A stretch of DNA of 64,000 nucleotides from Hydrangea macrophylla. Its lineage: Eukaryota; Streptophyta; Magnoliopsida; Cornales; Hydrangeaceae. The DNA is taken from the NCBI GenBank assembly GCA_033977485.1, contig CM066997.1:77470634-77534633 (forward strand), read 5' to 3'. Within the stretch, counting starts at the first letter, position 1; each line of letters begins with the position of its first letter. A program made the translations under genes and the position numbers. This document shows positions 1-55,100 of this stretch, in pieces. The notes below the pieces were generated by a model. That model searched no databases. It was not told where the DNA came from and was given only the letters and a program-made list of their open reading frames with translations.

Positions 1-382
1 CAAAAGAGATATTGAAGATCTCCAAGACCTTCAAGAGAAGAATATAAACAAGAAAATGGAAGAAAGTAATATGGAAACAAAAGAAACTCCTAAGTTTACT
101 TGATAAACAAAGAAAATAGTGCAAGATTTTAGGATTAGAGATTTTAAGAGAAGAAAGAATAAGCCAATAATCTATGGTTAGAGGATCACCTCCAAATTAT
201 CCTCAAAGTTTTCTTTTCTTTGAAGATCTTCCAAGCTCTTCTCTCTAATTCTCTAAAAAAAACTCTCTTTTCTCTCTAAAGAATGTCGGTGTAATGGAAG
301 TATTTTTGCATGTGCTCTCTCTCCCAATATGTTTCTCTTGGTGTTCTTCTTGGTCTCCCTTCTTTTAGGAAGATCCCTTCTC

Positions 383-390
383 TTTTATAA
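383..390 (-). promoter_or_regulatory. TATA box of T1 LTR
   Basis: Minus-strand TTATAAAA, repeated at 18286-18293 in the other LTR. It lies about 100 bp downstream (element sense) of the GC-rich inverted-repeat cluster. Initiation just downstream is inferred from position and from the matching TATA in T2 (53640). Confidence 0.6.
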
Positions 391-496
391 GCAAAATTAC
401 CAGGTATTTTTGGTGAATTTCAGAGCAAAAAACAGGTGTAATTCTCTCATTTGGTGGTACAATGTGTACTTTCTGAATTTAGACAGACTGCTGTCC

Positions 497-806
497 AGCG
501 CGGCAGTCCAGATACTGCCGCGGCAGTCCGTGACTGCCGCTGCGGCATTTCATGACTGCCGTTGCGGCACTCAATGACTGCCGCGCGGCATTCATCAAAT
601 GTCGCGGCCATTAATGGATTGCCGCATTTTTGTCAGTCTTACTTTATCAGTTTTTTGTTCTTATTCGCATACGCATACGTATTGCTCTGCAAAATACAGA
701 CTTTAAAAGCGAACGGCAGTCAAAAATCTGTGGCGACACTCGGTGAACGCCGGAACGGCACTCTCTGACTGCCGTGCGGCACTCAGGGAGTGCCGCGGCA
801 GTCTGC
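497..806 (-). promoter_or_regulatory. GC-rich inverted-repeat cluster upstream of LTR TATA (left LTR)
   Basis: Repeated units of the form GGCA-N-TC nnn GA-N'-TGCC, for example GGCAGTC-CGT-GACTGCC and GGCACTC-AGG-GAGTGCC. They lie in two sub-clusters (about 497-630 and 705-806) separated by AT-rich DNA. The same block is at 18400-18709, and an equivalent one is in T2 at 53225-53525. Confidence 0.75.
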
Positions 807-1073
807 CGTGTGCCGTTTTTGGCTAAGGTTCCCCTTTTAGGTCTTTTCTCTTTTTGAAACAAATTATTTTTGAATATCTTTTCCAAAAGTTGTGTTTTAT
901 ATCTGAATTCTCCTAAATACCTGGTATTTCCCTCTTTCTGTGAAATTTTATCGCGTTTTGGAGAACTTTCTGAAGAGCTTGGAATACTTCGAATTTTTCG
1001 GTCATTGTCATCATTGGACGTGGAGGTGACGCTCTCCTAAATTCGACGGCCAGTCAAAATTGGGGTGTCTACA

Positions 1074-1088
1074 GTTTGCCCCTCTTTG
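1074..1088 (-). other. Polypurine tract of T1
   Basis: In element sense, AAAGAGGGGCAAAC immediately precedes the LTR start TGTAGAC. T2 has GAAGAGGGGCAAAC in the same place. It primes plus-strand DNA synthesis in LTR retroelements. Confidence 0.9.
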
Positions 1089-1243
1089 ACAGAGCTTGTG
1101 GAGCGACGCGTCCCATAAGTGAATGTCAAAGCCTGTGTGAAGACAAGCCTTTAACCTGACTGTCGAATTTAGGCAAAAACAAAATGCGTTGCAAAAACGG
1201 GCGTGCAGCGGAATTCTAATTGGTCGTGCTCCATGACGAGCTT

Positions 1244-1282
1244 CCTACGTATCCCATCGGGAGTCAGACCAAGACGTAGTTC
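1244..1282 (-). other. Conserved stem-loop-like motif, copy near the 3' LTR
   Basis: CCTACGTATCCC followed by GGGAGTCAG and ACGTAGTTC, with complementary CTACGT/ACGTAG ends and inner TCCC/GGGA. It recurs at 8150-8189 just past the pol stop and in T2 at 52731-52769. Function unknown. Confidence 0.6.
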
Positions 1283-1518
1283 GGGCACGGGGTCGAACAC
1301 ACACAAACGCAAATAGTCACACGGATGGATGCACCTATCCTGTCGTGATGCACGTGCTATGCAACGGTGTTGTCTGAATTAACCTGGTTATATAAATGTC
1401 ATGCTTATCACATTTTCCCTATGTATGACGCGCATTTCGTGGCGTGTTAGTCAGGGAAGATTATCTATGCGAGAATCTGTCACAGGAGTCATGAGAGTGC
1501 TTTTGATTTGATCACGAA

Positions 1519-2487
1519 GGTCAACGCAAGTCCGTTGCGAAAACCGGGAATATAAGTCCGTTATATTCTCAAAAACGAGGGTTGACGCAAGTCCGTTGCG
1601 AAAACCAGAAATATAAGTCCGTTATATTCTCAAAAACGAGGGTTGACGCAAGTCCGTTGCGAAAACCGGGAATATAAGTCCGTTATATTCTCAAAAATGG
1701 GGGTTGACGCAAGTCCGTTGCGAAAACCGGGAATATAAGTCCGTTATATTCTCAAAAATGGGGGTTGACGCAAGTCCGTTGCGAAAACCGAGAATATAAG
1801 TCCGTTATATTCTCAAAAACGAGGGTTGACGCAAGTTCGTTGCGAAAACCGGGAATATAAGTCCGTTATATTCTCAAAAACGAGGGTTGACGCAAGTCCG
1901 TTGCGAAAACCGGGAATATAAGTCCGTTATATTCTCAAAAACGAGGGTTGACGCAAGTCCGTTGCGAAAACCGGGAATATAAGTCCGTTATATTCTCAAA
2001 AACGAGGGTTGACGCAAGTCCGTTGCGAAAACCGAGAATATAAGTCCGTTATATTCTCAAAGACGGGGGTTGACGCAAGTCCGTTGCGAAAACCGGGAAT
2101 ATAAGTCCGTTATATTCTCAAAAACGGGGGTTGACGCAAGTCTGTTGCGAAAACCGGGAATATAAGTCCGTTATATTCTCAAAAACGAGGGTTGACGCAA
2201 GTCCGTTGCGAAAACCGGGAATATAAGTCTGTTATATTCTCAAAAACGAGGGTTGACGCAAGTCTGTTGCGAAAACCGGGAATATAAGTCCGTTATATTC
2301 TCAAAACGAGGGTTAATCGCAAATACGTCACGCGGATCGGGAATATAAGTCCGTTATATTCTCAAAATGAGGGTTAACGCAAATACGTCACGCGGATCGG
2401 GAATATAAGTCCGTTATATTCTCAAAATTAGGGTTAACGCAAATACGTTGCGGAAACTGGGAATATAAATCCGTTATATTCTCAAAT
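1519..2487. repeat. 61-bp tandem array in the T1 3' non-coding region (about 16 units)
   Basis: The motif TTGACGCAAG recurs at 1582, 1643, 1704, 1765 and onward, so the period is 61 bp. The last three units are more divergent. Each regular unit holds two perfect interrupted palindromes with the same 5-bp spacer, CGCAA-GTCCG-TTGCG and AATATAA-GTCCG-TTATATT. A homologous array is at the same place in T2. Tat/Ogre elements are known to carry such arrays and to seed satellites. Confidence 0.95.
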
Positions 2488-2700
2488 TTCAAAGTTCGGG
2501 AGCCCACGGGCTTGGAATCTACTTTATATCTTCGAGACCCGGGGCCCACAAGCTAGGATTTCATCTTTTGAATTTTGGGGCCTACAAGCTCGAATTTTAT
2601 TCCGATTTCTGGGAATTGGGAGTCCACAGGCTCAAATTTATACCCGTATTTTGAAATTTGTAGCCGATTTAAACCTGGAAACAAAACCGGGTCAAAAAGT
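2488..2700. repeat. Degenerate repeat with GAGCCC..GGGCTC palindromes (T1)
   Basis: Roughly 40-60 bp units, each with a short palindrome such as GAGCCCACGGGCTT or GGGGCCCACAAGCT in AT-rich DNA. The better-preserved counterpart is in T2 at 51390-51745. Confidence 0.6.
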
Positions 2701-2809
2701 GCAATGAGGGCACACTTTGGGGGGCTCAAGTTCAATTTTCGGGACTTGATTTGAATTTTCGGGGGAAAAATAAATATCTTTGAACCGCCTTAATCGCGGC
2801 ACACGCGAT

Positions 2810-2935
2810 TTTTTGCGGCAGTCCGTGACTGCCGCGCGGCACTCACGGAGTGCCGTTGCGGCACTCGGCGAGTGCCGCGCGGCAGTTGACTGACTGCCGC
2901 GCACGAAAAAATGAGTGCTGCGTTTGAGCGGCAGT
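2810..2935 (+). promoter_or_regulatory. GC-rich inverted-repeat cluster upstream of the antisense PMD gene
   Basis: Contains GGCAGTC-CGT-GACTGCC, GGCACTC-ACG-GAGTGCC and GGCACTC-GGC-GAGTGCC side by side. It ends about 230 bp before the PMD start codon and just before a CT-rich leader. T2 has the equivalent cluster at 51113-51255 upstream of its PMD gene. Confidence 0.75.
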
Positions 2936-2944
2936 GGTTAAAAC

Positions 2945-3161
2945 CGCCGAGGTTTAAACATTTCTTTCATTCTCTCAACCTCCTCTCTCTCGAAATCTCT
3001 CTGGAGAAAGATTTTCTCTTGTTCTTCTCTTGCTTGGATTGATCTACCGGGGTTTACAGGTTAGTTCTGCTCGATCAAAACTTGATTAATTTCCTTTATT
3101 TCGTAGTTTTTTTTGGAATTTTCATGAACTTTAACGTGAATCTCTCCTTTTTTGACAGGTT
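2945..3161 (+). other. 5' leader of PMD gene with a leader intron (3060-3158)
   Basis: A CT-rich leader runs to TTTACAG|GTTAGTTCTGC (donor at 3060) and resumes after TTTTGACAG (acceptor ends 3158), three bases before the ATG. T2 has the same arrangement, with donor CACAG|GTAAGTTCTAC and acceptor TTGAACAG, which supports a real spliced leader. Confidence 0.65.
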
Positions 3162-6008
3162 ATGGCGAGCGGTTCTAGGAAGAAGAAGGCCAACTATACG
3201 GCCACCCATCATCCGGACGCCATACTTTTACTGAGGGACCCTGATGAGCACTTGTCGGCCCGCGCGTTTAAGCGCGAGGTAAACGCTTCTCTTTTCTTTT
3301 TGCTCGCATTTCTTTCTCGCATTTTCTTCTCTTGTATGAATGTAACGTAGGATTGCCACATCTTTTAGATACCCTGTTCTGAATTTCGTGCCCATGGCAC
3401 CTCCGAGCGTCCTTGATCGCTTTACTTCATGCCCCTCTTGCAAAGGAGTTTTTTATTTTATGAATTTTCAAAAACTGGATGTTACGCTGGAATTTTTTTT
3501 GAACACTCATCCTTTTATTGTTATTATTTTTATTTCTTTTAACTTTTTAACTTTCATCAAAGATTTTTGAAAACCATTTAATCAAAACTTCAAACATCCA
3601 ATGCCCATGAATACACGATCCTGAACCTTCACCTGTATTTTATTACATCGGCGAGTTTTTCTTGAGCATTCCAAGTGCCGTTTAATTATTCAAAAAAAAA
3701 AAAATGATTCTCGAATGTTTGCAATTACACATTTCGAAACTTATACTTTTTCGGGCCTAAAATCTCTTTATATGTGCATGTATTTTAGAGAATGTGGACA
3801 AACTACTCTTTTTTTTTTTTTTCTTTTTTTCTTTTCGGAACCTTGTTAGAAAATCGAGCATTTTCTCTTATTCATCTCCTCCTGAATGCAAACAAGTGTG
3901 AAATCCTCTATGAACACTTCTGGACTTTCCATTTATTAATTATTTATTCGCTGTTGTTGCTCTCTTCTTTATCCATTCCCTAACAACAAACCTTTTATTC
4001 TTTTCTTGCAGCTGCAGCCGAAGGTGCTGAAGGGGCATGGCAGCCTCGCCCACGGCCACGAGTGGTACACAGAGCTGAGCCCGACCGTGAGGGCTCTAGT
4101 GGACGCAGCAGGGTTTGGAGACTTCGTCAAACTTTTGACGAAGAGCTCCAACGATCTACAGCAGATGCATGCGCTGGCTGAGCGGTGGTGGGATACCACG
4201 AGTACCTTCCACTTCGATTTTGGGGAGATGACGATGACCCCCCTAGACTTCAGCATGATCACGGGGATTCCATTCGGAGGAGAGCCCCTGCGGCACCTTA
4301 CAGACCAGGAGTGGGATCAGATGGAGCCCTTGCTAGGGGTGGTCCCGGAGGAGGCCTTGGTCACAGCTCGATGGTTTATGGATACTTTTCGAGGGAAACC
4401 CGGCTTTACGGACGAGCAGATGGCCCGAGGTTTCTTGATGTATGTGCTGGGGTGCTCCTTGTTGAGCACCAAGGGGGACCGGATTTCCGCTTCCTTGGTA
4501 GCGTCGTTGGAGCGCCTGGACCAGGTTGCCGAGTACGACTGGGCTGGTACAGGGTTGGCTATCCTGTACAGGCATATGAGTGTCATTTCCCGGGACAGGT
4601 CGGCTACTACTGGCGGGTATTGGAGAGCGTGGGAGGTATACTTTTTCCTATATTGCTCATTATCATATTTCTTTCTTCCTCTTTTTTTTAAATATGAGAC
4701 TAATCTTCTTTCTTCTCTCTTTGTATCACAGATTTGGTCCCACAAGTATCTTCGCATGATGTCTCCTCAGACGCGTGATGCCGACGCCCTTATCATGCCC
4801 CAGGGGCTGAAATGGGCGACGGACAGGGTTGGGAGGAAGACCGGGGCTCATGATTTTGTTTCGTTCAGGAACTTCCTGACGAACCTGAGGGAGGGGCACG
4901 TGCACTGGCAGCCGTGGCTCAGGGTCTTGCCTGAGGCTAGGGTGGGGTTGCGAGAGTCGGCCGGGTATGACCCGACGAGGCGACTTCTTGATGGTGGGTC
5001 AGAGGGTATGGCGTGGTATTTGGGAGAGAGAGTGACCCGGCAGTCGATAGCGGCCCCCGGGTTCTTTGTGCCGTTCCCTCCTCCCGACTCTATGAGGGCC
5101 ACAGACATGCTTCAGGGCGGCGATCTCACGGCTGCTCGAGCCGGCTTCGGTATCCACGGCTTTTTGGACGACCCGTCAGGATATGCGGCTTTCCGTGCCG
5201 CCAAGCTGATGCCGAACTTCCCTCTGATGGAAGTGACTCGGGTGAGTAAACGATTCCTTTATTATTTCTGCGAATTTTCTTTTTATTCTTTACCCATGCT
5301 TTATTTCTTTTGTTTGCAGCCTGTTCCTGCCGCGGTTCGAGCTCCTGCCTTGCCCGAGTGGGACTGGACTATGTCGATCGTCTCATTCGGAGAGCCCCAC
5401 TCGACGACGATTCCTCGACTTTCACATGGTGCTCCCACCATACATTTACATTATGACGTCGTCCCGCGTGCTTATGCGGAGGAGGGCCTAGCGTATGCCC
5501 ATAACGTGCGACAGTGGGTTCTCGGGCGAGAGTGGATGGTAAGAAATTTATCCCCACTCCTACTTTTGATTGGGATTGTACCTCTTTTTACTAATCTTTA
5601 TTCCTGGTTCTTGTTTTCAGGCTGAGGGAGCTCGGGCGACTGCTGCGGTTCAGTTGAGGGCCCAGGTATGATCTTCTACCCTTCCCATACTCTTAGTATT
5701 CCAAATGTCTTTTCAACACTTTTCTAGACTCATCCCCTCTCTTCCAGATGGAGGAGAACAGAGTCCTGTCTCAGCAGGTGGGACAGCTTCAGCAGCGGCT
5801 CCAGCATTTCGGCATCCCTCTCAGCGATGCCCCCGGAGGTAGCGGTGCTGGGCGCGGCGGAGGTGGCTGCGAGGGCACCAGCAGAGGCAGAGGCGGCAGT
5901 ATCGGGGGTCGTGGAGGGAGCGGTGGAGGTAGCGGGACAGAGTCGGAGGAGGAGCCTCTCAGGCGCACGACTCGTCATACTCGCGGCTGGGGTCGGGGTC
6001 ATGGTTGA
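3162..6008 (+). CDS. Plant mobile domain (PMD) protein gene, antisense to T1, six coding exons
   Basis: Predicted exons are 3162-3278, 4012-4635, 4732-5241, 5320-5538, 5621-5665 and 5748-6008. Every junction is GT-AG and phase 0, and the joined frame is open for 591 codons. The N-terminus is basic (MASGSRKKKANYTA). The PMD core spans about residues 40-490 (for example GFGDFVKLLTKSSND, FHFDFGEMTMTPLDF, GGYWRAWE). The C-terminus has a short heptad stretch and a Gly/Arg-rich RGG-like tail. Host PMD proteins (MAIN/MAIL family) act in silencing and genome maintenance; PMD domains also occur in transposons, including antisense ORFs reported in Tat elements. Introns can persist only because the gene is antisense to the genomic RNA. 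The T2 copy (48580-50889) has the same structure. Exact exon borders are inferred. Confidence 0.85.
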
Positions 6009-6394
6009 CCCTGCTTATATATATATTTTTTGTTTCTTTTGAGAGGATTTTTTGTTTTTTTATTTTTTTATTTTGGATGACTGTATATATATACACATAT
6101 GCTTTATTTTGATGGTCGCTTCCTTATAGTTGGTAGGGTAGATGCTTTACATATTTATATTTTCTTTGCTTACTCACCGTATGTGTGACCATAGCTTGGT
6201 CCAACTCTTGCCGTATGTGGGACCATAGCTTGGTTCCAACTTTATTGTTTCTTTTTATCTTTTTGGGACGAATGAATGAATGAATGAATGGATCTGTATG
6301 TGTTGCATGATGCACACGTTTTTATTGCTTCTCAATTAGTTTTCTGTTTGCAGGTGGGCTGATTATATTACAAACAAACCCTGGCCAATAAAAA
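6009..6394 (+). other. Spacer between the two antisense genes
   Basis: AT-rich 3' region of the PMD gene with TATATATA and T-runs that could serve in 3'-end formation. It also holds an imperfect repeat of the type GTATGTG-GACCATAGCTTGG (6178-6240) and a short GAATGAAT run at 6269-6289. No reading frame recognised. Confidence 0.5.
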
Positions 6395-6515
6395 ACTTGG
6401 AACGGCACTCGGTTAAGTCTCCGTGGCACTCAGTGAGAGCTGCAGCGGCAGTCAGTGAGTACCGCAACGGCATTCACGGATTGCCGCGCTGCACTTCGCT
6501 GAGTGCCGCAGTTAG
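6395..6515 (+). promoter_or_regulatory. GC-rich inverted-repeat cluster upstream of the second antisense gene
   Basis: Contains GGCACTCAGTGAGAGC, GGCAGTCAGTGAGTACC and GGCATTC-ACG-GATTGCC, less perfect than the other clusters. It ends about 85 bp before the ATG at 6601, with an AT-rich TATTTATATCCC between. Confidence 0.65.
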
Positions 6516-6600
6516 GTAGACAGCCTTATTTTTCTATTTATATCCCTTCATTCTCAAAGTTCCGCAAAACACTTCTCATTTCTCCTTATTTCCCCTTCAA

Positions 6601-7692
6601 ATGGCCCCCATTAGTTCTCAAATCCTCTTCCCATGGATGGACACTCTCTCTGGCATTGACAAGCTCAATTTTGAGTGCTTCAGACTAAACGATCTCTTCT
6701 CCTTCCAACAAATGAATCTAAATGAGGGTCTACTTCGCGCCGCCGTCCAATGTTGGGATCCTGCTCTCCATGTCTTTCGTTTCGGCTCTCAGGAGATTTG
6801 CCCTTTATTTGAGGAGTTTAGTGCCATTCTCCGCACGGATCCTTCTGCTGAATTGATGGTTCCTCAGATTCAGGCTGGGTATGTTCGGGACTTAGCCACC
6901 CTTCTCCACATGTCTCGGAATGCGGCGGGCTCTTTTGTTCATGACAGGCAAATTGACTTTGAGCGCCTTTCTTCTGTTTACGCTCCCATAGGGGATCCTT
7001 ACAATGGTGAGTACCAGATCATCCGACGTAGTGCCTTGTCAATTGCCATGCTCTCTTACTTCCTATTCCAGTCATCTTCGGACACTCTCATACCCATCGC
7101 CTGCGGTTTGAGGGAGATGAAAAGTGCTGTTATGCTAGTCCTTGGTGAAACTTTGATTGGATTGGGCCATACTCACGCTACTGGGGTCATGTTATCCGCT
7201 GGGGCACCTTTTGTCTTGCAAATTTGGCTCATGGAGCGTTTAGACCTCTTCATACATGCTTCCCATCTCCGTGGGTCACTTCCTTATGATCGCATGGAGA
7301 TTCACAGCTTGTTTCAGTCCGCCGACGCGTGGCTTGGTTGGCTTCAGGGTCTTTCTTCTAGTGACATCTGTTGGGTTTGTCCGTTATGGATATGTCGCTC
7401 TGTTGCTGTACGCCTCCCTGGGCGACCTGGCATCTGGCTGCCGGGTTTGCATGCTATGACTTTCTACATTCCTGATCGAGTTGTCCATCAGTTTGGACGT
7501 TTGCAAGATGTCACTGAATCTATGACTGCTGATTTCACCAGGGGGTCCCCTTTGCGTCCTTCTATCGCGAAGGCTTTCATGGAGGCTTGGCCCAGCAGAA
7601 TGGCTGCTCCGTTCCCGAGGATTCCTGCTCTGACTGTGCCTACTACTGAGTATCTTCTAGAGATCCAAACCTTGGCTGCGAGGCGAGCTTGA
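6601..7692 (+). CDS. Second antisense gene of T1: PMD-like (DUF7745-type) protein, intronless
   Basis: Uninterrupted 363-codon frame with no splice signals needed. Residues about 45-75 contain WDPALHVFRFGSQEICPLFE followed by EFSAIL, a pattern I associate with the PMD-like domain annotated in plant Tat-element proteins. Further along are LPGLHAMTFYIPDRVVHQFG (about 277-296) and a C-terminal EYLLEIQTLA. It is much shorter than the PMD gene and not obviously a duplicate of it. It faces pol tail to tail: its stop at 7692 lies about 530 bp from the pol stop at 8221. An open frame over 1.1 kb in a decaying neighbourhood argues for recent function. The domain name is from memory; biochemical role unknown. 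Confidence 0.7.
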   Translation: MAPISSQILFPWMDTLSGIDKLNFECFRLNDLFSFQQMNLNEGLLRAAVQCWDPALHVFRFGSQEICPLFEEFSAILRTDPSAELMVPQIQAGYVRDLATLLHMSRNAAGSFVHDRQIDFERLSSVYAPIGDPYNGEYQIIRRSALSIAMLSYFLFQSSSDTLIPIACGLREMKSAVMLVLGETLIGLGHTHATGVMLSAGAPFVLQIWLMERLDLFIHASHLRGSLPYDRMEIHSLFQSADAWLGWLQGLSSSDICWVCPLWICRSVAVRLPGRPGIWLPGLHAMTFYIPDRVVHQFGRLQDVTESMTADFTRGSPLRPSIAKAFMEAWPSRMAAPFPRIPALTVPTTEYLLEIQTLAARRA

Positions 7693-11200: not shown

Positions 11201-11450
11201 CCAGCTCTTAATTGCTTTTCAACCTCCTCTTTTACTTTAAGTTCCCATTCTGGCCTCATTCGCCTCAATTTTTGTTTTATGGGCTTTGAATTGGGAAAGA
11301 GGGGGATGTGGTGTTGGACTATTTTTGGATCGATACCTGGCATATCATTGTAAGACCATGCAAAAACGTCTTTGAATTCATTTAATAGACTGATTAGTTC
11401 TTTACTTTCTTTATTGCTAAGTGTAGAGCCGATGAAGACATTTTGAGGAT
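8221..11450 (-). pseudogene. pol: T1 pol: reverse transcriptase, RNase H, archaeal-type RNase H, integrase
   Basis: Order in element sense: RT (from about 11343; catalytic VYMDDM), Ty3-type RNase H, then an archaeal-type RNase H with the D-E-D-D set in YFDGAA, AEYEA, FGDSNLI and QLADSLAT. Integrase follows: zinc finger HMNGH..CHKC, core residues in AIDYFTKW, SDHGSHF (usually SDNGSHF) and AVETANKN, then a C-terminal region ending NRLKKYFA at 8221. The dual RNase H is diagnostic of Tat. The frame is broken by apparent single-base gains in GC homopolymers near 9430, 9255 and 8335, a shift in an A-run near 11473, and one in-frame TAA near 8574. Domains are otherwise nearly complete. Confidence 0.92.
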
Positions 11451-12555
11451 TATTCTCATTTCCAAGATTAATTTTTGCAGTTCAATAGGTATTTTATGGT
11501 CATCACATTCATTAAGCGCGTTCGAGTAGGCAGAATCAGTCATACTTTCATTGATTTTCTTTGGAGTGATTACAACAGACATAGAAATTGAAAGACGCCT
11601 CATTTGGGCCATTACAGACTCTGGGTGTGGGGGGAACCTATCACTAGACTCAAAAACCCACTCCTTCTTGTGCTCTCCTCCCAGGCTAGTAATAAAGCAT
11701 TCTTCCGGACCTCCTGTCTTGGTGATTTTCTCCATCTCTTCTTCTTCAGCCTTCCCTTCCTCACCTTCTTCACTCTCGGCAGCTTCCTCCACTATGCCCT
11801 CGACGTATTCACCTTTGGTCTTTCCGGGATCCTCCTTCATGACCTCTGCGTTCCCTTCGCCTAACAGATCTTTCATAGCAGAACCGTCTAGCGTACCAAT
11901 CCAGTCCTTGGCAGCAACAGACTTTTTAAGCATTTGCAAAAATGGGTCTTTGTACCCAGAAAATTCATGGGAGAAGAAGATCTCGAACCCCGGCTTCATG
12001 CATTTGTCCTTTTGGTCCATCCATGGTTCCGGGAAACCACAGAAGGGGAAATCTTCTCCTTCCTTCACAAAGTACCCGTTGAGAGTCTTCAAGTAAGGGT
12101 CTAGTGGCGCATTGACAGCCTTTTTCTTTGCTCTTAATTCCTTCTTCGTTGGCTGGTACCCTAGACCGTGAGTGTGGGTCTGAGTAGGGATTCTTGGAGC
12201 CTCTGGTAGGCCCTGAAGATTCTTCCCCAGTCCCAACCCTGGAAAGAAACCCATTTTCTTCATGATTCCCGCGACCACTGGACTAGCATACTGATCGAAT
12301 TGGGGCGGTGGAAACTCTTTCGGCTTTCCCTCTTCTATCATGCTGATGAACTCGAATCCTCCCATCTTCGCTTCTTCTTCTTGAAGCTGTAATTCTAGGA
12401 CCGGTGCACTTGACGACGCTTCAGATGAACGAACCCAACTGTCTCCGAGGATATCACAGACTTTGTTTTCCCAGACATACTTAACCTTTTGATGGATCGT
12501 CGATGGTATAGCGCCCAAACTGTCCAACCAAGGCCTTCCCAGCAGCAGATTGAAA
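11394..12555 (-). pseudogene. T1 protease C-terminus plus G-patch region of the polyprotein
   Basis: Continues the protease after a one-base loss near 12555 (LLLGRPWLDSLGAIPSTIHQ). The frame then holds a G-patch-like segment (IMKKMGFFPGLGLGKNLQG..GLGYQPT) and a Glu-rich linker (GIVEEAAESEEGEEGKAEEE), and ends shortly before RT. G-patches after the protease are usual in Tat-type elements and may bind RNA or nucleic acid. A shift in an A-run near 11473 separates it from pol. Confidence 0.8.
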
Positions 12556-14818
12556 GAAGAGGGATATCGATGATTTGGAACTTAGCTTCTTTGTCCATCG
12601 GCCCGATAGCGAGATTAAGAAAGATAATGCCCATGACTGCCCTTTGGGTGTTGTCATATGCCCGGACCTTTTGTTGAGACGGCACAAAAGAAGACTCATC
12701 TAAACCCATTCGCTTGGCTGTACGGAAGGGACATACATTAAGAGCAGACCCGTTGTCAACGAGACAAGCGGGCACGGTGTTCCCCAAACATTCAACGGTG
12801 ATGTACAGTGGCTTGTTGAGCGTGGGTCCTCCCGGAGGTAAGTCATTCGATGAAAAGGTGATAGCCGAAGTCGGAATCTTGCCGATCAATCCTATGAGGT
12901 CTTCCGGGGTGGTGTCGATAGACACGTCAGCTTGATTCAGAGCGTCTAGGACCGCCTGCCTATGGCGTTTGGAGGCAATCAGCAACCCCCAGACAGTAAT
13001 GTTAGCCAGAGTCTTCTTCATTTGCTTTAGGACCCGATCCTCTTCTTCTTCCTTGTTCATTTTTCCTTTCCCTTTCTCCAACGCTCTCCCCGGGTGATCT
13101 TCCTCTAGCTCATGCGGCTTGAAGTGTCTACCAGACCGAGTCAAATGGTCGATTTCCTCTTTTTCCCAAATGTTATCGGTTTCTGAGACGGTCTTTGAGC
13201 CCTCTTTTGTCTCTTCGTCGCTTTGATACCATAGATCATCCTCTCCTACCCGGTCTATGTTCCGATCATTGCTTTCTTGCACCCACCAATCTGACTGCCT
13301 CGTCACTTCGTTTTCCCATATCCCTGGCTGGCTTCCAAGCATGCAGATCCCCGAATTTTCTGGCAACTGATAGAACTTCTTTGGCTCTCCGACCTTTGTG
13401 ATTAGCTTGGACGGATCGAATGCCGCTTCTTCTACCCCTAAGAAATAAAGACCCCGCGGCAGTGGCACAGCACGATGGTTCGGCAGAGGATTCTTGGTGA
13501 CATTGGGGGCTTTGACAGGTGGCTCGGATATCACTTTGTTGTCAATGAGGTTCTGGATTTCGTGCCTTAATCTCATGCACCGATCCGTCGAGTGGCCCTT
13601 TTGTTGATGATACTTGCAGTAGAGATCTCCCTTGAAGTGTGGTGGGAGTGGACTCGGCGGGGGTCGAGGTTCTAGCTGACGGAGATGCCCTTTCACTAAC
13701 AGCCTATCGAGGGCGGTTGATAGTGACACTCCCAAATTCGAAAACTTCCTCAGTGGCTTATCCTCTCCTCCTCTTGGATGGTTTCTGGTGATATCGAAAC
13801 TTTTCTCCGGCTCGCTAAGCGCATTGACATCGGTGGGGCCAGAGTGACCCCCCGAGTGCCCTCCATTTGATCCATAACTGGGCCTTCTATATCGGTTCTG
13901 TGGCTCCTCCTTCTTGATTGTTCCTTCTTGAATTGCATCTTCGATTCTCGTCCCCACATCGAATACCTCAGCAAAGGTGTTGATTGACTGAAATCTCATC
14001 TTCTCCTGATAAACTGGCTGCAGATTTTTCATCAGCATTCGGATCTGGTCTTTCTCAGGCGGCCTTTGTACCATTTTAGCTGCCTTTCCTCTCCATCGAC
14101 TCAAATACTCGGCAAATGATTCTTTGTTCCCCTGCCTGGTCGTTTCCAAATCTCGGACGGTAACATCCAAATCCCGGACGGTAACATCCAAATCCTGATT
14201 GTACTCGTATTGTGCCACAAATGCCTTAATCACTTCTTCCCATACTCTGGTTTTGCTTGGCTCAAGTGTAAGATACCATGACAGAGCAGCTCCTGTTAAG
14301 GTTTGTTGAAATAGGACAGCCATCATGGTAGTGCTCAGTCCACTAGGCTGAAAAGCTCCTATGCACATTCGGACATGACTGCGGGGATTGCCTGTGCCAT
14401 CAAACTTATCGAAAACTGGCATTTTAAAACCGGCCGGCAGCGTCTCGTGGACTCCGTCATACAATCCTTCCAGTTCCATTAGATAGGTATCCACTCCCTG
14501 AGCCTTGCGCATTACCCTTTCCAACTTTTCTATCTTCTCGGTCAGCAGCTTCTCCTTCTCATCTTTCTCTCTGTCCCTGTTGGCTCTTAGTGCATCATTC
14601 CAATGTGCCTCTTGATCGTCGAACCAATCTCCGTCTCCTCCTCCCAAAGGCGGGTCTATAATAGGTGGAATTACATGCGGCGGCGGTCGGCGATTCAGCT
14701 CCTCTATCATTCCCATCATGCGGTTCATGTTCTCGGCCTGTCTCCTCATTTGTTCCGCTTGCTGTTCGACTAGTACCCTTAATCCGGTCATCTCTTCGTT
14801 GTTTCTTTCTTCGGCCAT
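12395..14818 (-). CDS. gag: T1 gag-protease
   Basis: An 807-codon frame, of which about 750 codons are genuine before the frameshift near 12555. The N-terminal coiled coil (QQAEQMRRQAENMNRMMGM) precedes a retrotransposon gag capsid (FDKFDGTGNPRSHVR, LSWYLTLEPSKTRVWEE), then a CHHC-type knuckle, CKYHQQKGHSTDRC. This variant is common in Tat gag. The aspartic protease active site is CLVDNGSALNV, with N where retroviruses have S/T, again usual for Tat. Codons near 14155-14200 carry a direct 21-bp duplication (DVTVRDL twice). The start at 14818 is the first Met after stops and leaves a 1.1 kb leader to the PBS. Confidence 0.9.
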   Translation of the reverse strand: MAEERNNEEMTGLRVLVEQQAEQMRRQAENMNRMMGMIEELNRRPPPHVIPPIIDPPLGGGDGDWFDDQEAHWNDALRANRDREKDEKEKLLTEKIEKLERVMRKAQGVDTYLMELEGLYDGVHETLPAGFKMPVFDKFDGTGNPRSHVRMCIGAFQPSGLSTTMMAVLFQQTLTGAALSWYLTLEPSKTRVWEEVIKAFVAQYEYNQDLDVTVRDLDVTVRDLETTRQGNKESFAEYLSRWRGKAAKMVQRPPEKDQIRMLMKNLQPVYQEKMRFQSINTFAEVFDVGTRIEDAIQEGTIKKEEPQNRYRRPSYGSNGGHSGGHSGPTDVNALSEPEKSFDITRNHPRGGEDKPLRKFSNLGVSLSTALDRLLVKGHLRQLEPRPPPSPLPPHFKGDLYCKYHQQKGHSTDRCMRLRHEIQNLIDNKVISEPPVKAPNVTKNPLPNHRAVPLPRGLYFLGVEEAAFDPSKLITKVGEPKKFYQLPENSGICMLGSQPGIWENEVTRQSDWWVQESNDRNIDRVGEDDLWYQSDEETKEGSKTVSETDNIWEKEEIDHLTRSGRHFKPHELEEDHPGRALEKGKGKMNKEEEEDRVLKQMKKTLANITVWGLLIASKRHRQAVLDALNQADVSIDTTPEDLIGLIGKIPTSAITFSSNDLPPGGPTLNKPLYITVECLGNTVPACLVDNGSALNVCPFRTAKRMGLDESSFVPSQQKVRAYDNTQRAVMGIIFLNLAIGPMDKEAKFQIIDIPLLSICCWEGLGWTVWALYHRRSIKRLSMSGKTKSVISSETVGFVHLKRRQVHRS

Positions 14819-16003: not shown

Positions 16004-18976
16004 TGTGGATATCGCAGGTTGACTTACCCACAGCTTTTCAAAATCAAATTCAAAAACAAAATGAGTCGCCACTTAATTTTTAAAAGGAAAATTAAGAAAC
16101 CATTTTAAAAGCAAACTGATCTTTTAGAAACCAGAGGTTAACTAGGTCCGGGGATTATGGAATGAGAGAGGAAGGAGCCCATCGGACTAAAACACCCTCT
16201 CTCATCCTATCTTGCGATAGGCCTTTACTCAACATCCTTTTAATCAAATTTATTAATCTAAGCATGCCCATATACATATACATCATAAAAGCATGTCCAA
16301 AGGGTGTAAAATTGCAATTGACAAAATATCATTCAAAAGCCACATAATTCAGGTAACAAGCGATATGATATGCAATAGAGAACAAGTGAACTTACCCGGG
16401 ATCCAGCAGCGATAATAAACGTGCAATGCATGCGAACAAAAGAAAATCCTAAAAAGAGGTCTCTAATCACATATACACATAAGGCAAGCTCCTAATTCTA
16501 AGGTATTGCGCATGAGGTCGAAAGATCAATAAAATCAAGAAATTAGGATAAACTAGAGAGGAGTCCTAGAAATCATACCTTGATAGCGCTACAAAACAAA
16601 GGGTTAGTCCACATGCTTCACATAATAATAACATGATATCAAGCAATCAATCCTAATTCTCTAGCTTATACCTAGCAAGCAATGAAATCCAATTTTATCC
16701 AATTACTAATTCGAATTGTAAGCATTAATGTACATAAATGAATGGATGTGAACAAGAATAGGCTATTAACTATGAATTCATTCATTGATTTGAATCATTT
16801 AGCTTTAAGATTTAAGTCTAATTAATCATTATTGAGATATGGTATGAACCCTTGGTCAAGAAAGGGTCATTTGGACCTTTGTTTGCTAAGTAAGTATAAA
16901 TTGTAACAAAACTCTGAAAATTCCAGAGAGCAGACCCGAACTTCAAAGAAATAAAAGGCATGGCTCCCGTGGTTTGATCTTGATGATTTTTAGACTCGAT
17001 ATGTCTCTGTGAGTCTAGTTTTCAAATCAAAAAGAAAATCAAAGTTTCAACGGTTGGATCTCCGGGAATATGAAAAATACTAGACATCACTCAGCACTTT
17101 ACAACCTTCTGTCCAGAATTCTTGCACGATTTATTAAAAATAGTAAAAAAATCCGAATTGCTTTGTTCTTTAGGGTGACTTCCTAACACATTAAACTTCA
17201 TAGAAAAAATTATTTGGAGTCACAAACACTTTATTAGAACTATGATTTAATTGTTTCAAAAGAGTGTCACTGTTCTGAAACTATTCTGAAATTCTGGGCA
17301 GATTGTATTTGTGTCACAAAACTCATGATCAAACCATCCTAAACATGAAACCACCTTAAAACAAAAATTACAGTGGTAGAATATTGTGTTATTGACACTT
17401 TCCCGTTGGTTTCACTTGATTTCAACGGTTAGATTTCGAACTAAAAATCTTTGATCAAAAACAGTTTGTGGATTCACTGTTTTTATTTTGCTAGTTCAAC
17501 TTTTATTTGGTAACTCCAACTATTAAACCATGAAGTTGAGTTGAACCAAACCACTTCTCCTACCATTTGATGGCCATTAGAGACTACAAACCTTTATTCT
17601 TCATAGATTTCAAATGAAATATGGATAGACTTCATGAAATCTATAAGATAAGGAATCTAAACCATGGAGATGGGTTTAAACTCAAAACTACATTCTCCTA
17701 CCATTTGATGGTCATTGGAGAGGGAGACATGACTATGACTCATGAGTCCTAAAGGAATATAGAAGGGATTCCTCAAGACATCAAGTTTAGAAGATCCAAA
17801 TCATGAGTATGGACTTGGATCCTCTTATGAAGTGGTGATCAAACTTTGACTCCTATGTGAAGCACAAGCCTACATGGGATTCAAAAGATCATGCTCAAGA
17901 GATCAAAAGAGATATTGAAGATCTCCAAGACCTTCAAGAGAAGAATATAAACAAGAAAATGGAAGAAAGTAATATGGAAACAAAAGAAACTCCTAAGTTT
18001 ACTTGATAAACAAAGAAAATAGTGCAAGATTTTAGGATTAGAGATTTTAAGAGAAGAAAGAATAAGCCAATAATCTATGGTTAGAGGATCACCTCCAAAT
18101 TATCCTCAAAGTTTTCTTTTCTTTGAAGATCTTCCAAGCTCTTCTCTCTAATTCTCTAAAAAAAACTCTCTTTTCTCTCTAAAGAATGTTGGTGTAATGG
18201 AAGTATTTTTGCATGTGCTCTCTCTCCCAATATGTTTCTCTTGGTGTTCTTCTTGGTCTCCCTTCTTTTAGGAAGATCCCTTCTCTTTTATAAGCAAAAT
18301 TACCAAGTATTTTTGGTGAATTTCGGAGCAAAAAACAGGTGTAATTCTCTCATTTGGTGGTACAATGTGTACTTTCTGAATTTAGACAGACTGCTGTCCA
18401 GCGCGGCAGTCCAGATACTGCCGCGGCAGTCCGTGACTGCTGCTGCGGCATTTCATGACTGCCGTTGCGGCACTCTATGACTGCCGCGCGGCATTCATCA
18501 AATGCCGCGGCCATTAATGGATTGTCGCATTTTTGTCAGTCTTACTTTATCAGTTTTTTGTTCTTATTCGCATACGCATACGTATTGCTCTGCAAAATAC
18601 AGACTTTAAAAGCGAACGGCAGTCCAAAATCTGTGGTGGCACTCGGTGAACGCCGGAACGGCACTCTCTGACTGCCGCGCGGCACTCAGGGAGTGCCGCG
18701 GCAGTCTGCCGTGTGCCGTTTTTGGCTAAGGTTCCCCTTTTAGGTCTTTTCTCTTTTTGAAACAAATTATTTTTGAATATCTTTTCCAAAAGTTGTGTTT
18801 TATATCTGAATTCTCCTAAATACCTGGTATTTCCCTCTTTCTGTGAAATTTTATCGCGTTTTGGAGAACTTTCTGAAGAGCTTGGAATACTTCGAATTTT
18901 TCGGTCATTGTCATCATTGGACGTGGAGGTGACGCTCTCCTAAATTCGACGGCCGGTCAAAATTGGGGTGTCTACA
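16004..18976 (-). repeat. T1 5' LTR, complete (2973 bp)
   Basis: In element sense it runs from TGTAGACACC (18976) to CCACA (16004). The last 1073 bp on the plus strand match the left LTR. It contains the promoter block (TATA 18286, GC-rich cluster 18400-18709), and in the R/U5 side two copies of CTACCATTTGATGG about 140 bp apart (17557 and 17695). Confidence 0.95.
18400..18709 (-). promoter_or_regulatory. GC-rich inverted-repeat cluster upstream of LTR TATA (right LTR)
   Basis: Second LTR copy of the block at 497-806, differing at about 9 positions. This is the copy that would drive T1 transcription. Confidence 0.75.
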
Positions 18977-19764
18977 CATATAACAATGTTACTAAATAAT
19001 ATATCTGCTTCTTTTATCAAGATATATCGTTAACCGATTCTCATCATTAATCACTTCTTATCATCTCCCAATCTAAAACCAGCTATACCAATCTTGCCTG
19101 CTCATCTCGAACTGATTATATCATCACAACATACCAGTGCTCTTGTTCACCGCTATACCGCTTTTAAGAACTCTTGCGAACACTCATACATCGTTCTCAT
19201 ATAACGACTGGTCTATGGATGTACCCATACTCTTGTTCACCACTTTTAAGAACTCTTACTGTTCACCGCTTTTAAGAACGCTTGCGAGTACTGTACATAC
19301 ATAGCTCTGGTAAATATAACCATGGGCGTGCCACAACTACTCTTGTTCACCTCTTTTAAGAACTCTTACTGTTCACCGCTTTTAAGAATTCTTGCGAGTA
19401 CTGTGCACCCATAGCTCTCACGATCTTGGTCAAATCCTTCTGACTCACTTATCATATTTAACCTGAGCGAATCATCAGCTCGACTCACATCCCATCAACA
19501 CATACTAATACTGCACTGACTCAATCACTAGCTACTCGAAGCTACTAAATGTTATTATCATCGCCTCCATCTCCTTATCGCGTTTTATTATTACTAACGT
19601 TCCGAGCCCGACTATGTTACTCACCTTGTTATCTCAATCTCATTATCGTATCCCAATACCTTTGTAATCCATAATATCACATAGTAGGAACACAAGATAA
19701 CAATTAAACTGTTACGCATTATGAATTATAAACTTAAGGAATACATCCATGTTCTGATAGGGTC

Positions 19765-19925
19765 GATCGATTGAAGTCCTTTCGATCGATTGAGGAAAGG
19801 TGAGGTTCAACCGATCTAAGTTTTCTCGATCGATCGAAGTCAAGGCTATCTCGATCTATTGAAGTCATTTCGATCGATTGAGACTCAGGGTGGTTCGATC
19901 GATTGAACTCAGTTCGATCGCTCAA
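19765..19925. promoter_or_regulatory. TCGATCGATTGA palindrome cluster, R/U5 side of the 3' LTR
   Basis: About eight copies of TCGATCGATTGA or close variants spaced 15-30 bp apart. The matching cluster in the other LTR is at 28406-28567. Confidence 0.7.
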
Positions 19926-20202: not shown

Positions 20203-20236
<34 letters not shown>

Positions 20237-20600: not shown

Positions 20601-20679
20601 TGAATTTTCATAAAGGATCAAAGGAAAATACATAGAATCTCTCTTCATTAAATAATTATTGAAAATGCAGGGTATTACA

Positions 20680-48579: not shown

Positions 48580-50889
48580 TCCCCAAGAACCCACTGCCGC
48601 ACGCGGGCATACGTCAAGCCCTCCTCTGTGTAAGCACGCGGGACGATGTCATAATGAAGAGGAATAGTAGGGGCACCCTGTGAGAGCCAGGGGATCGTCG
48701 TCGAGAAGGGCTCGCTAAACGAGACAGTCGACATGGTCCAATCCCACTCAAGTAAGGCAGGAGGACGAGCCGTAGCAGGAACATGCTGTAAACAAAAAAT
48801 AAAACGTAAATAAAGAATGAAAGAAAACTCATAAAAGAATGAATGAATCATTTACTCACTCGAGTCACTTCTATCAGAGGGAAGTTCGGCATCAGCTTAG
48901 CGGCACGGAACACTGGGTATCTGGTGGGGGAGTCCACAAAGTCATGGATACCCAAGCCCATCAGAGCAGCCGAAAGCTCACTACCCTGGAGTGTGTCTGT
49001 GGCTCTCATACAATCAGGAGGAGGGTATGGCACAAAGAATCCAGGGGCTGCCAGTGACTGCCTAGTCACCCTCTCTCCCAAGTACCACGCCTGGCCCTCT
49101 GGCCCATCAAGAAGTCGTCTCGTCGGGTCGTATCCAGCAGACTGCCGAATCTCCGCGCGAGCGTCAGGAAGCACCCTAAGCCATGGCTGCCAGTGAACAT
49201 GCTGCTCCCTCAGGTTCGTCAGGAAGTTCCTGAATGAAATAAAATCATGGGCTCCAGTCTTCCACCCGACTCTATCCTTCGCCCATTTCAGCCCCTGGGG
49301 CATGTTGAGGGCGTCAGCATCTCGTGTCTCAGGGGACATCATGCGGAGATACTCGTGGGACCAAATCTGTAATATATAAAAAAAGAGATTCATCTCGCAA
49401 TTTAAATAAGTTTCTGAAAAGTGTAATAAGCAGTGAAATATAGAAAAGGGTATACCTCCCACGCCCTCCAATAGCCACCAGTGGAAGCCGGCCTGTCTCG
49501 GGAAATGTCGCCCATATGCCTGTACAAGATGGCTAACCCTGCACCAGCCCAGTCATACTCATCGATCCGGTCCAGGTGCTCCAGGGACGCTACCAGGGAA
49601 ACAGAGACCTGGTCACCCTTGGTGCTCAACAGAGAGCACCCCAACATGTACATGAGAAAACCCCGGGTCATCTGCTCGTCGGTAAAAACCCTGCTGACCC
49701 CTAAACGTATCCATGAACCATCGGGCTGTGACCAAAGACTCCTCCGGGACCACTCCCAACAATGGCTCCACCTGGTCCCACTCCGTATCCGCCAGATACC
49801 GCAAACACTCTCCACCAAAGGCAATCCCCGTAACCATCGAGAAGTCGAGCGGGGTCAGGGTCATCTCCCCAAAGTCGAAATGGAACGTGTTGTTGGTATC
49901 CCACGAACGCTCCACTAAGGCATGAATCTGTCGGAGATCATTCGAGCTCTTCGTCAAGAGCTTGACGAAGTCCCCGAAGCCAGCAGCAGTAGCTAGATTC
50001 TTCACCGTCGGGTTCAGCTCCCCGAACCACTCAAAGCAGTGGGCCAAACTCCCGTGCCCTTTCAGCACGTCGGGCGGAAGCTGCAAAAGTTAAAAAATAA
50101 TAAATAAAAATTTTTTCACATCAGCAAAAGGAATAAAAATGGAGAGAATGGAACAGAGCAAGTATGAATAAAGGATAAACGACCCAAAAAATGACATTCC
50201 AATCTCGGAAAGGGGTTTTCATTATCATACAGGTCTAAAAATAGGAAAAAGGGAACTGAATAATAAAGTCAGTGAAAAGAGCAGTCGAAGCAATCAGGAA
50301 ATTCTTTCCTTTCTAAAAAAAACAACATATGATAAAATAAAAAAAATAACAATAAAAAATGGTATTTATACTCGTAAGAAGGTGAATGAACTGTTTGTTT
50401 TGTAAACATGCATTACCTTCATGAGGATAAAAGAAGAAATGAAGTAAATGAATAAAAGAAGGGCGACCGCAGCACTTGTAAGCATAAAAGTTGCATTGGT
50501 AAAAGGTGTACAAAGTTGTGATTGAAATACATTAAATTCGTGAGTACTAATAGAAAATAAAAAAATAATAATAACGATAATAAATAAAACAAATGAATGA
50601 CGAACTAAACATGGGAATGAACGTGGTTCATAAGGGTGACAGTCGCATTGCACGAAAAGTATGGGAAGTTTCGTCAGGCACCATATTCGTAAGAGATAAT
50701 ATCATGTCGATATGATTCGTAATAAGATAATACGAAAAGAGAAGTAACGGGTGAAAGCGCGTATACCTCTCGCTGAAGCGCCCGCGCTGACAAGTGCTAG
50801 CCCGGTTCCCGAAGCAGGAAGGAAGGGTCGGAGTGGGGAATGGCCATATATTTGGCCTTTTTCTTCTTACTCCTCGAACCACTAGCCAT
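48580..50889 (-). pseudogene. T2 antisense PMD gene, truncated and disabled
   Basis: Exons parallel T1: 50889-50767 (MASGSRSKKKKAKYMA), 50080-49456, 49366-48860, and 48785 to the breakpoint. Exon 1 has a TAG where T1 has GAG (EPG*HLSARA). Exon 2 is 625 nt against 624 in T1, a one-base gain near 49690. The last two T1 exons are lost. The leader intron is conserved. Retained exon borders in a dead copy support the T1 gene model. Confidence 0.88.
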
Positions 50890-51112: not shown

Positions 51113-51255
51113 GCCACTCAGAACGGCACTCGGGGAACCGTGCGCGGCAGTCTCTGCAGTGTCGTGCGGCACTCACTGAATGCCGTCGCGGCATTCACGG
51201 ACTGCCGTACGGCAGTCACGGACTGCCGCATTTTGGAGCGTGTGCCGCAGTTGAG
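51113..51255 (-). promoter_or_regulatory. GC-rich inverted-repeat cluster upstream of the T2 PMD gene
   Basis: GGCACTCACTGAATGCC, GGCATTC-ACG-GACTGCC and GGCAGTC-ACG-GACTGCC, about 220-360 bp upstream of the start codon, as in T1. Confidence 0.75.
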
Positions 51256-53224: not shown

Positions 53225-53525
53225 GTTTTTGCGGCACTCAGTGAGTGCCGTACGACAGTCACCGAATGCCGGACCGACACTTATTGAGTGCCGCCGATAA
53301 TTTCTGACTGCCGTTTGCTTTTAAAATCCATATTTTGTGGTACAATACGTATATATATATACGGATAAAAACAAAAAACTGATAAAGTAAGGTTGACAAA
53401 AATGCGGCAATCAATAATCCGGAGCGGCTCTCAGTAAGTGCCACGCAGCAGTCATGGAATGCCGCAGTGGCTTTCACGGAGTGCTGCAGCGGCATCCACT
53501 GAATGCCGCAGAAGTTTTTTTGATT
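53225..53525 (+). promoter_or_regulatory. GC-rich inverted-repeat cluster in the T2 LTR
   Basis: Includes the perfect GGCACTCAGTGAGTGCC at 53234 and about eight weaker copies in two sub-clusters split by AT-rich DNA, as in T1. Confidence 0.75.
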
Positions 53526-53639
53526 GCCGCCTTCTGCAACAGTCTATCTATTTTCAGGAAGTACGTATTGTACCACCAAATGAGACATTTATACCCGTCT
53601 TTTACTCCGAATTCACTGAGAATACTTGGTAATTTTGTC

Positions 53640-53647
53640 TATAAAAA
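53640..53647 (+). promoter_or_regulatory. TATA box of the T2 LTR
   Basis: TATAAAAA, about 115 bp after the cluster. Confidence 0.6.
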
Positions 53648-55100
53648 AGGGAGGATCTTCCTTAGGAGGATATACAAGAGAAGAAGGAGCTACCATTACA
53701 CTAACATATATTTGAGAGAGAGTTAAAAAAAAACTAGAGAGAAGAGCTTGGAAGATCTTCAAAAGGAGAGAAGCTTTGAGGATTGTTTGGAGGTGATCCT
53801 CTAACCACAATTTGTTTTTCTTCATTCTTTTGAATTTTTTTGGTCTTGATTAACCTTTTTAGAAGTTTTATTAGGGAACTTGCAAACTTTAATTACCTTT
53901 TTCTTTTAGTTCTTTCTTTTCTTTCTTTTGTTTATACTTCTCTCTTGAGATTCTTGGAAGTCTTCTATACTTTACTTGAATCTCATGAGTTGGATCCTTT
54001 GATTCCATGTGAGCTTGTGCTCCCCCATGAGGGTCAAGGTTGATCATCCTTTATATAAGAGTAAATAAATGAATGTAAACCTCTACCATGGTTTGAGATT
54101 CTTTAACTTAAGGTTTCATGGAATCCCCTTTCATATTCCTTGAAAACTTATGAGTATTAGCTATGTTTGTTTGTACTTCTCTCTTGAGATTCTTTAAGGC
54201 TCATGAGTATTAGTCATATCTTCATCTCCAATGACCATCAAATGGTAGGATAAAGTAGTTTTGAGTCTAAGCCCATCTCCATGGTTTAGATTCATTATCT
54301 TGAGATTTCATGAAGTCTATTCATACTTCATTTCAAATCTACAAATATAAAGGTCTTTAGCCTCCAATGACCATCAAATGGTAGTAAAAAATGGTTTAGT
54401 TTAAGTCCAACTTAATGGTTTAATAGTTGGGGTTAACAAATGAAAGTTGAACTTGACAATGAAACAGTGGATCCATAAACCGGTTTTGATCAAAGATTTT
54501 TGGTTCGAAATCTAACCGTTGGAATCAAGTGAAACCAACGGGAAAATGTCACTAACTCAAAGTTCTACCACTGTAATTTTTGTTTTAAAGAGATTTCATG
54601 TTTAAAGTGGCTTGGTCATGAGTTTTGTGAAGTCACTACAATCTGTCCAGAGTTTCAGAACAGTAACACTCTTTTGAAATAAGTAAATCAGAACCTTGAT
54701 AAACTATTTGTGACCCAAAATAATTTTTTCTAAGTAGATTAATGTGTTAGGAAGTCACCCTAAAAAGAATAAAACATTTCTGATTTTTTTTGCTATTTTT
54801 AAAAAATCGTGCAAGAACTCTGGACAGAAGGTTGTAGAATGCTGAGTGATGTCTGGTTTTTGTCTAATTCCCGGAGCTCCAACCGTTGGAACTGTGATTT
54901 CTTTTTTGGGTTAAAAACTAGACACACAGAGGCATCTTGTGTCCAAAATTCATCAAGATTAAACCACGGGAACCATGCTTTTATTTCTTTAAAGTTATGA
55001 TCTGCTCTCAGCAATTTTCATAATTCTGCAATAGTTTTAACCAAAATCACAGATTTGGCTTGCATTTCACTATTTACTCTATGTTTGATCAGTTTCATAA

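Follow-up and report, generated by a model that had tools for sequence, protein, structure and literature searches.

Can one kind of cis-regulatory site serve both the long terminal repeat (LTR) promoter of a plant retrotransposon and the promoters of genes that the element carries on its opposite strand? This question is raised by a 64,000-nucleotide stretch of the Hydrangea macrophylla genome (GenBank assembly GCA_033977485.1, contig CM066997.1, positions 77,470,634 to 77,534,633; hereafter, the window). Relatives of its encoded proteins mark the window as plant DNA. It contains T1, a minus-strand Ty3/gypsy element with two opposite-strand genes, the PMD gene and the DUF7745 gene, between its integrase and its 3′ LTR, and T2, the 3′ portion of a related plus-strand element with counterparts of PMD exons 1–4, the polypurine tract and the LTR. 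A first-pass annotation had described clusters of GC-rich inverted repeats upstream of each transcription unit and proposed that they form a shared operator. Our analysis resolves these clusters into phased arrays, which probably serve one dimeric, sequence-specific DNA-binding protein and would constitute a common enhancer or operator of the LTR and the two antisense promoters. All array results come from these two related elements in this one window.

Palindrome arrays at three promoters

Matches to the motif GGCANTCNNNGANTGCC across the window number 15 exact, 24 with at most one mismatch, 33 with at most two and 44 with at most three. Of these, 15, 24, 31 and 34, respectively, fall inside nine stretches (1,294 bp in total) that were drawn round the clusters after the sites had been seen, leaving 0, 0, 2 and 10 outside. 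Dinucleotide shuffles of the window (100) contain on average 0.02, 0.06, 1.37 and 14.6 matches, and local shuffles of the stretches (500) contain 0.00, 0.004, 0.07 and 0.71. The clusters are thus present everywhere the first-pass annotation had placed them, with 24/24 sites of at most one mismatch in the nine stretches against a mean of 0.06 per shuffled window. Its statement that no clusters occur elsewhere agrees with the absence of any such site from the rest of the window, and the comparison with shuffled background that it had suggested, run here on this window, puts array sites far above shuffles (24 versus 0.06).

Because two of the nine stretches belong to the duplicate LTR, we count seven separate arrays; without the 5′ LTR copy, 12 exact sites and 17 with at most one mismatch remain. 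Perfect half-sites are similarly concentrated, with 57 of 81 inside the arrays (43.5 per kb, versus 0.38 per kb outside). The other retrotransposon pieces of the window, a Ty3-type gag/protease/reverse transcriptase (RT) segment at 22.7–25.6 kb and a copia gag at 59.5–61.3 kb, contain no site with at most one mismatch.

The arrays lie upstream of the LTR TATA box, the antisense PMD gene and the DUF7745 gene in T1, and upstream of PMD and the LTR TATA box in T2. In the minus-strand T1 3′ LTR, the TATA-proximal LTR array a (502..623; units at 502, 522, 544, 566, 587 and 607) is followed 110 bp downstream by the TATA box GCTTATAAAAG (382..392, minus strand), and the distal LTR array b occupies 715..814 (units at 715, with 4 mismatches, 735, 757, 778 and 797). 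Their copies in the 5′ LTR, also read on the minus strand, span 18405..18526 for array a and 18618..18717 for array b, with units 18405 and 18700 placed by the 17,903 bp offset between the LTRs. In the plus-strand LTR of T2, array b (53233..53312; units at 53233, 53254, 53276 and 53296) precedes array a (53406..53528; units at 53406, 53426, 53447, 53469, 53491 and 53511, the last with 4 mismatches), and the TATA box TCTATAAAAAAG (53638..53649, plus strand) again stands 110 bp past array a.

The two antisense genes of T1 are preceded on the plus strand by their own arrays. The array upstream of PMD (2798..2898; units at 2798, with 4 mismatches, 2817, 2838, 2860 and 2881) ends 264 bp before the PMD ATG, and an apparent 5′ untranslated region (UTR) intron lies after it. 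The array upstream of the second antisense gene (6404..6507; units at 6404, 6425, 6447, 6469 and 6490) is followed 27 bp later by the TATA-like box CTATTTATATCC (6534..6545, plus strand). The T2 counterpart, upstream of the antisense PMD remnant, lies at 51125..51227 on the minus strand (units at 51125, with 4 mismatches, 51146, 51168, 51190 and 51211).

Half-sites on a two-turn lattice

The refined site is CGGCANTCASTGANTGCCG, in which two inverted half-sites GGCANTCA are arranged about one central C/G and flanked by CG. Biases beyond the motif of the first-pass annotation are A at position 8 (18/25 units), C/G at position 9 (19/25) and T at position 10 (14/25), and the unit is preceded by C in 22/25 cases and followed by G in 24/25, creating a CGG...CCG signature. 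To describe the lattice, units were located irrespective of spacing, with up to 4 of 12 mismatches and a spacer of 2–4; the resulting 36 lattice units exclude the 5′ LTR copy and include degenerate end units, which lowers, without removing, the bias from motif-based unit choice. They match the fixed half-site letters at 381/432 positions, and position 5 varies over their 72 half-sites (C 28, G 21, T 17, A 6).

Centre-to-centre spacing averages 21.12 bp (sd 0.84, n=29), with a phase coherence of 0.88 at 10.5 bp; a 30th spacing, of 48 bp, is off the lattice and excluded from the mean. A uniform null of 17–29.5 bp, sampled 20,000 times, never gave spacings this tight. Since about 21 bp corresponds to two turns of B-DNA, successive sites face the same side of the helix. 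Three features add to the original description: the 20–22 bp lattice, the flanking CG and the agreement in array phase between T1 and T2. By eye, LTR array b and the PMD array are also each preceded, in T1 and T2 alike, by a GGCACACG-type box 19–20 bp before the first unit.

Across 12 T1/T2 unit pairs (9 LTR and 3 PMD; outer and 18-base units were left unpaired), 122/144 fixed positions agree, against 11/24 at positions 5 and 13 and 17/36 in the spacer (Fisher p = 6.6e-8), and the LTR linkers are of equal length in 7/7 comparisons. The arrays are also dense in CpG, with observed/expected ratios of 1.05 and 0.96 versus 0.47 and 0.43 over the remainder of each LTR.

The repeats had originally been called co-varying, and this description did not hold. 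In a set of 25 units (17-mers, with the 5′ LTR copy and 18-mers excluded), position 5 and its mirror pair in 12/25 units, a weak excess over the 7.6 expected by shuffling (p = 0.043), and no excess is seen at the six remaining mirrored positions. When paired T1 and T2 units are compared, compensation accompanies 0 of the 21 changed mirrored pairs at fixed positions and 2 of the 9 at position 5. The first-pass annotation had itself named independently mutating arms as evidence against its proposal; the arms behave as two independent copies of a half-site, which we count in favour of the operator.

We regard a shared operator as well supported because of this combination of exclusive promoter-proximal placement, two-turn lattice, kept linker lengths and independent half-site arms, from which we infer protein binding and co-regulation. 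The arrays are real and well organized, and we read them as a cis-regulatory feature that the sense promoter and the antisense promoters have in common within a single retrotransposon family. A dimer would occupy the two inverted half-sites of each unit, and the 20–22 bp repeat would put successive dimers on one face of the helix, permitting cooperative binding. A single protein could then determine jointly how active gag-pol, PMD and the DUF7745 gene are. Foamy virus, an animal retrovirus, offers a parallel to such shared control in its element-encoded activator Tas, which works at the LTR and at an internal promoter alike.

Candidate readers and rival explanations

Both antisense genes encode candidates for such a reader. 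The T1 PMD gene (3162..6008, plus strand; 591 aa; PF10536, E 3e-34) has six predicted exons (3162–3278, 4012–4635, 4732–5241, 5320–5538, 5621–5665 and 5748–6008), modelled on GT/AG sites, and all exon lengths are multiples of three. An apparent 5′ UTR intron with GT/AG ends, noted by eye in T1 (3060–3158) and T2 (about 50893–50993), suggests a spliced antisense transcript. The predicted C terminus (5748–6008) contains a short coiled-coil-like stretch and then a Gly/Arg/Ser-rich tail which, again judged by eye, could have a role in dimerization or nucleic-acid contact. The second gene is a single open frame (6601..7692, plus strand; 363 aa) with a DUF7745 match (PF24924, E 3.3e-7) and a PMD match under its cut-off. 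The PMD remnant of T2 (48582..50889, minus strand) comprises counterparts of exons 1–4; none was found in T2 for exons 5–6, which were omitted from the codon comparison. Over exons 1–4, T1 and T2 differ at 74, 48 and 182 of 479 codons at codon positions 1, 2 and 3, so PMD is under protein-level constraint and is therefore important to the element.

A host transcription factor has about an even chance of being the reader, and an element-encoded PMD or DUF7745 protein is a serious contender at rather less than that; that the arrays have no dedicated reader we consider unlikely. A general or host reader is favoured because Sireviruses have similar boxes and the passages of PMC2829016 on those elements make no mention of PMD; a host factor is accordingly somewhat likelier than an element-encoded PMD. 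The first-pass annotation had cast PMD in the role of VANC, a protein encoded by VANDAL DNA transposons that binds motifs in its own elements. Its shared operator is well supported by placement, lattice, linkers and half-sites; its PMD reader is a candidate. No DNA-binding domain was found in either antisense protein: Pfam matches up to E 1 are PMD and DUF7745 alone.

Element-encoded control, in which the PMD (or DUF7745) protein binds the arrays, that of its own promoter included, and thereby switches on the element or lifts its silencing, much as VANC does for VANDAL, we consider less likely than not. Both array-bearing elements have PMD (2/2, T2 as a remnant), its codons are constrained, one array is located at its own promoter, and the arrays form CpG-dense patches within CpG-depleted LTRs. 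VANC targets, too, are tandem repeats in noncoding regions (in part of PMC5735166), and the host PMD proteins MAIN and MAIL1 are required by genes with the 'DOWN' promoter motif (25/26), according to passages of PMC7156037 and PMC9899485. Against it stand the two-element sample, the similar Sirevirus layout described in PMC2829016 in passages that leave PMD unmentioned, single array CpGs that are kept no better than others (12/23 versus 17/25), and the contact of MAIN/MAIL1 with chromatin, which a passage of PMC9899485 describes as unknown. Structure models gave no DNA-binding fold and are weak (mean pLDDT 38.6 for the DUF7745 protein and 50.0 for P0008, a stand-in for PMD); the fold search of the P0008 model against the PDB had no match at E <= 0.001. 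Sequence searches against solved structures gave no match for the DUF7745 protein and, for PMD exon 2, two designed proteins only, over about 30 residues, and no relatives were confirmed in viral contigs. A bolder version, to which we give less credence, has a PMD or DUF7745 dimer reading the phased arrays of the LTR and of both antisense promoters in a positive feedback that would keep these CpG-dense islands open against host methylation, with MAIN/MAIL1 and their promoter motif as its domesticated form.

The palindromes might instead act through RNA or DNA hairpins, for example by templating silencing-inducing small RNAs, a role suggested for the LTR palindromes of maize Sireviruses. At the palindrome clusters of those Sireviruses, a passage of PMC10760457, citing a 2016 paper, reports an excess of small RNAs. 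All seven arrays fold more stably as RNA than their dinucleotide shuffles (z −3.5 to −8.4), and under a looser, position-shuffle control z remains negative in 7/7 (−0.26 to −2.17; P is about 0.03 for two of the arrays). We set the latter control aside because it also scrambles the conserved CG flanks and spacer letters. Permuting tokens, with arms, flanks and token types kept, leaves a Stouffer Z of −0.26 over the seven arrays; permuting position 5 alone gives Z −1.04, with the T1 PMD array alone at z −2.32 (P 0.08). Hairpin co-variation was rejected on the loss of the folding effect under token permutation and on the 0/21 compensated changes at fixed positions, and folding has no need of a fixed phase between units; we judge a hairpin function improbable. 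With neither compensation nor folding excess over token-permuted arrays, the symmetry is best taken as the two half-sites of a dimer, and the arrays look like dimer-binding sites rather than selected hairpins.

A functionless 21–22 bp unit multiplied by slippage or template switching, that is, a neutral minisatellite, would account for the period-20–22 arrays that Tandem Repeats Finder reports in 8/9 stretches, for non-arm letters that diverge between T1 and T2 beyond the LTR background, and for linkers of LTR array b and the PMD array whose similarity looks somewhat higher inside one element (T1 8/9, T2 6/9) than across the two (5/9, 4/9), a hint of exchange. We consider it very unlikely, as distinct arrays stand at three promoters and nowhere else in the window, linker lengths are identical in T1 and T2 (7/7), non-arm positions vary freely among units and the arms do not, and position 5 and the spacers have no within-element excess (6/15, 7/15 versus 7/15, 7/15).

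Several observations weigh against a shared operator. Whole arrays are less alike between T1 and T2 than the remaining LTR (154/216 ungapped columns, 71%, versus 1404/1676, 84%; BLAST identity including gaps is 74–75%). The fixed arms match near the background rate (85% versus 84%), so the case depends on the contrast between arm and non-arm letters. This contrast is favoured by the way the fixed positions were defined, since the definition drew on these units themselves. In LTR array a, the spacing of the outermost unit is 19.5 bp in T1 and 20.5 bp in T2, 12/23 array CpGs of T1 are still CpG in T2 compared with 17/25 outside, short tandem duplication likewise yields a 21–22 bp period, and the looser folding control leans the same way. 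The number of elements is two, related, in a single window. Two simpler forms of conservation were rejected on these data: a plain conserved block, as the alignment of the arrays is poorer than that of the remaining LTR, and protection of individual array CpGs. Non-arm letters change faster than background, perhaps through unit exchange, and the CpG density of the arrays points to motif constraint, not to the guarding of particular CpGs.

Known systems and the carrier elements

The closest precedent for the shared operator, among the matches listed, is the repeated motif (RM) boxes of Sireviruses (Ty1/copia), which passages of PMC2829016 describe as palindromes with a CGG-CCG signature located upstream of the LTR TATA box and of ENV. 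The arrays here are likewise repeated palindromes with this signature, are CpG-rich and stand shortly upstream of the LTR TATA box (110 bp in both elements), with a further set at extra genes: ENV there, both T1 antisense genes and T2 PMD here. One listed sorghum box, AGGGCGGCAGTGCCGCCCT, includes GCGGCA and TGCCGC. The distance from CGG to CCG is 13 bases here versus 4–6 in the 12 listed Sirevirus boxes that have the signature, and, unlike in Sireviruses as described there, the element is of Ty3/gypsy Tat type, its extra genes (PMD and DUF7745) are antisense and arrays are found at all three transcription units. Because the carrier is Ty3/gypsy, the arrays fall outside the Sirevirus set despite probably working alike. 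A Sirevirus-style layout is already known; here it occurs in a Ty3/gypsy Tat-type carrier with antisense genes. An open-licence literature search found no such layout in a Tat-type element, which is no proof of its being unpublished.

More general parallels come from parts of PMC10760457, on repeat arrays, some palindromic, that are common in LTR cis-regulatory regions, and of PMC4029996, on CpG-rich stretches upstream of the LTR TATA box, including in the Ty3/gypsy element Del. Both place regulatory repeats or CpG upstream of the LTR promoter, as here, and the passages concerned do not describe one box common to sense and antisense promoters. The VANC/VANDAL system of Arabidopsis shares short motifs clustered as noncoding tandem repeats, in elements that, as those here may, encode the reader (passages of PMC5735166 and PMC10398659). 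It differs in being a DNA transposon whose VANC21 motif, YAGTATTAY, is not called palindromic (the string 'palindrom' is absent from the main text of PMC5735166) and in having a reader demonstrated by chromatin immunoprecipitation sequencing (ChIP-seq) and electrophoretic mobility shift assay (EMSA), whereas here there are candidate readers. The 'DOWN' motif of MAIN/MAIL1/PP7L similarly links PMD proteins to a promoter motif, and its MORC1 version CATGCAGTTT has GCAGT in common with some half-sites, five letters that may coincide by chance; unlike our arrays, 'DOWN' is not described as a phased palindromic array in the relevant passages of PMC7156037 and PMC9899485.

Antisense open reading frames between pol and the 3′ LTR are shared with Retand and Ogre elements, for which passages of PMC11963269, PMC6317226, PMC7264820 and PMC5418596 suggest a regulatory role of the antisense genes and report that the Grande antisense gene has its own promoter; PMD is found in 57% of Ogre elements (in part of PMC6317226). 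These accounts mention, in the passages concerned, no cis motif common to sense and antisense promoters, and in PMC11963269 'palindrom' and 'promoter' occur in the reference list only. Its PMD and G-patch content fits T1 to the Tat/Ogre group. The G-patch domain (PF01585) is at 11394–12581 on the minus strand, in the T1 frame between gag and RT, and part of PMC9289625 ranks G-patch among the commonest additional domains in plant Gypsy elements. TRP28 (PF04195), the marker of Retand sensu stricto, was not among the Pfam matches (E up to 1) of the two antisense proteins, the scan having covered antisense frames of at least 150 codons.

T1 itself encodes gag (PF03732), G-patch, RT/RNase H and integrase domains on the minus strand from 14908 down to 8573, and the domain order gag, RT/RNase H, integrase is that of Ty3/gypsy. 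Its 3′ LTR (1..1073, minus strand), truncated by the window start, is 98.9% identical over 1,073 bp to 17904–18976 in the 5′ LTR (16004..18976, minus strand). The latter starts at 18976; its end near 16004 was placed by eye from the primer-binding-site-like TGGCGACTCTGCTGGGGATC beginning at 16000, which we take to be of tRNA-Arg type, and its homology to T2 extends to 16907. Next to T1, a 94%-identical direct repeat of 1.7 kb (18978–20678 and 27623–29311), looking like the LTRs of another element, brackets the broken-up Ty3-type gag/protease/RT at 22.7–25.6 kb.

Further tandem arrays containing palindromes occur in T1 (1514–2489, 61-bp unit) and T2 (51769–52488, 121-bp unit). The T1 array holds 10 exact copies of CGCAA-GTCCG-TTGCG and 13 copies of GAATATAA-GTCCG-TTATATTC, which have the loop in common and different arms, and the T2 array has four palindrome patterns with CAAA- or CGGA-type loops in 5, 4, 4 and 5 copies. 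In these palindromes the loop is constant and the arms vary, the opposite of the promoter boxes.

A shared operator would put the antisense genes and gag-pol of this family in a single regulatory circuit, and it would bear on why Ogre/Tat elements retain antisense genes such as PMD. The site CGGCANTCASTGANTGCCG in two-turn arrays would provide an exact DNA probe for the reader protein; if that reader is PMD, the result would have a bearing on the action of the host PMD proteins MAIN and MAIL1. More broadly, the parallel with Sireviruses suggests that the same promoter layout has been reached by two retrotransposon superfamilies.

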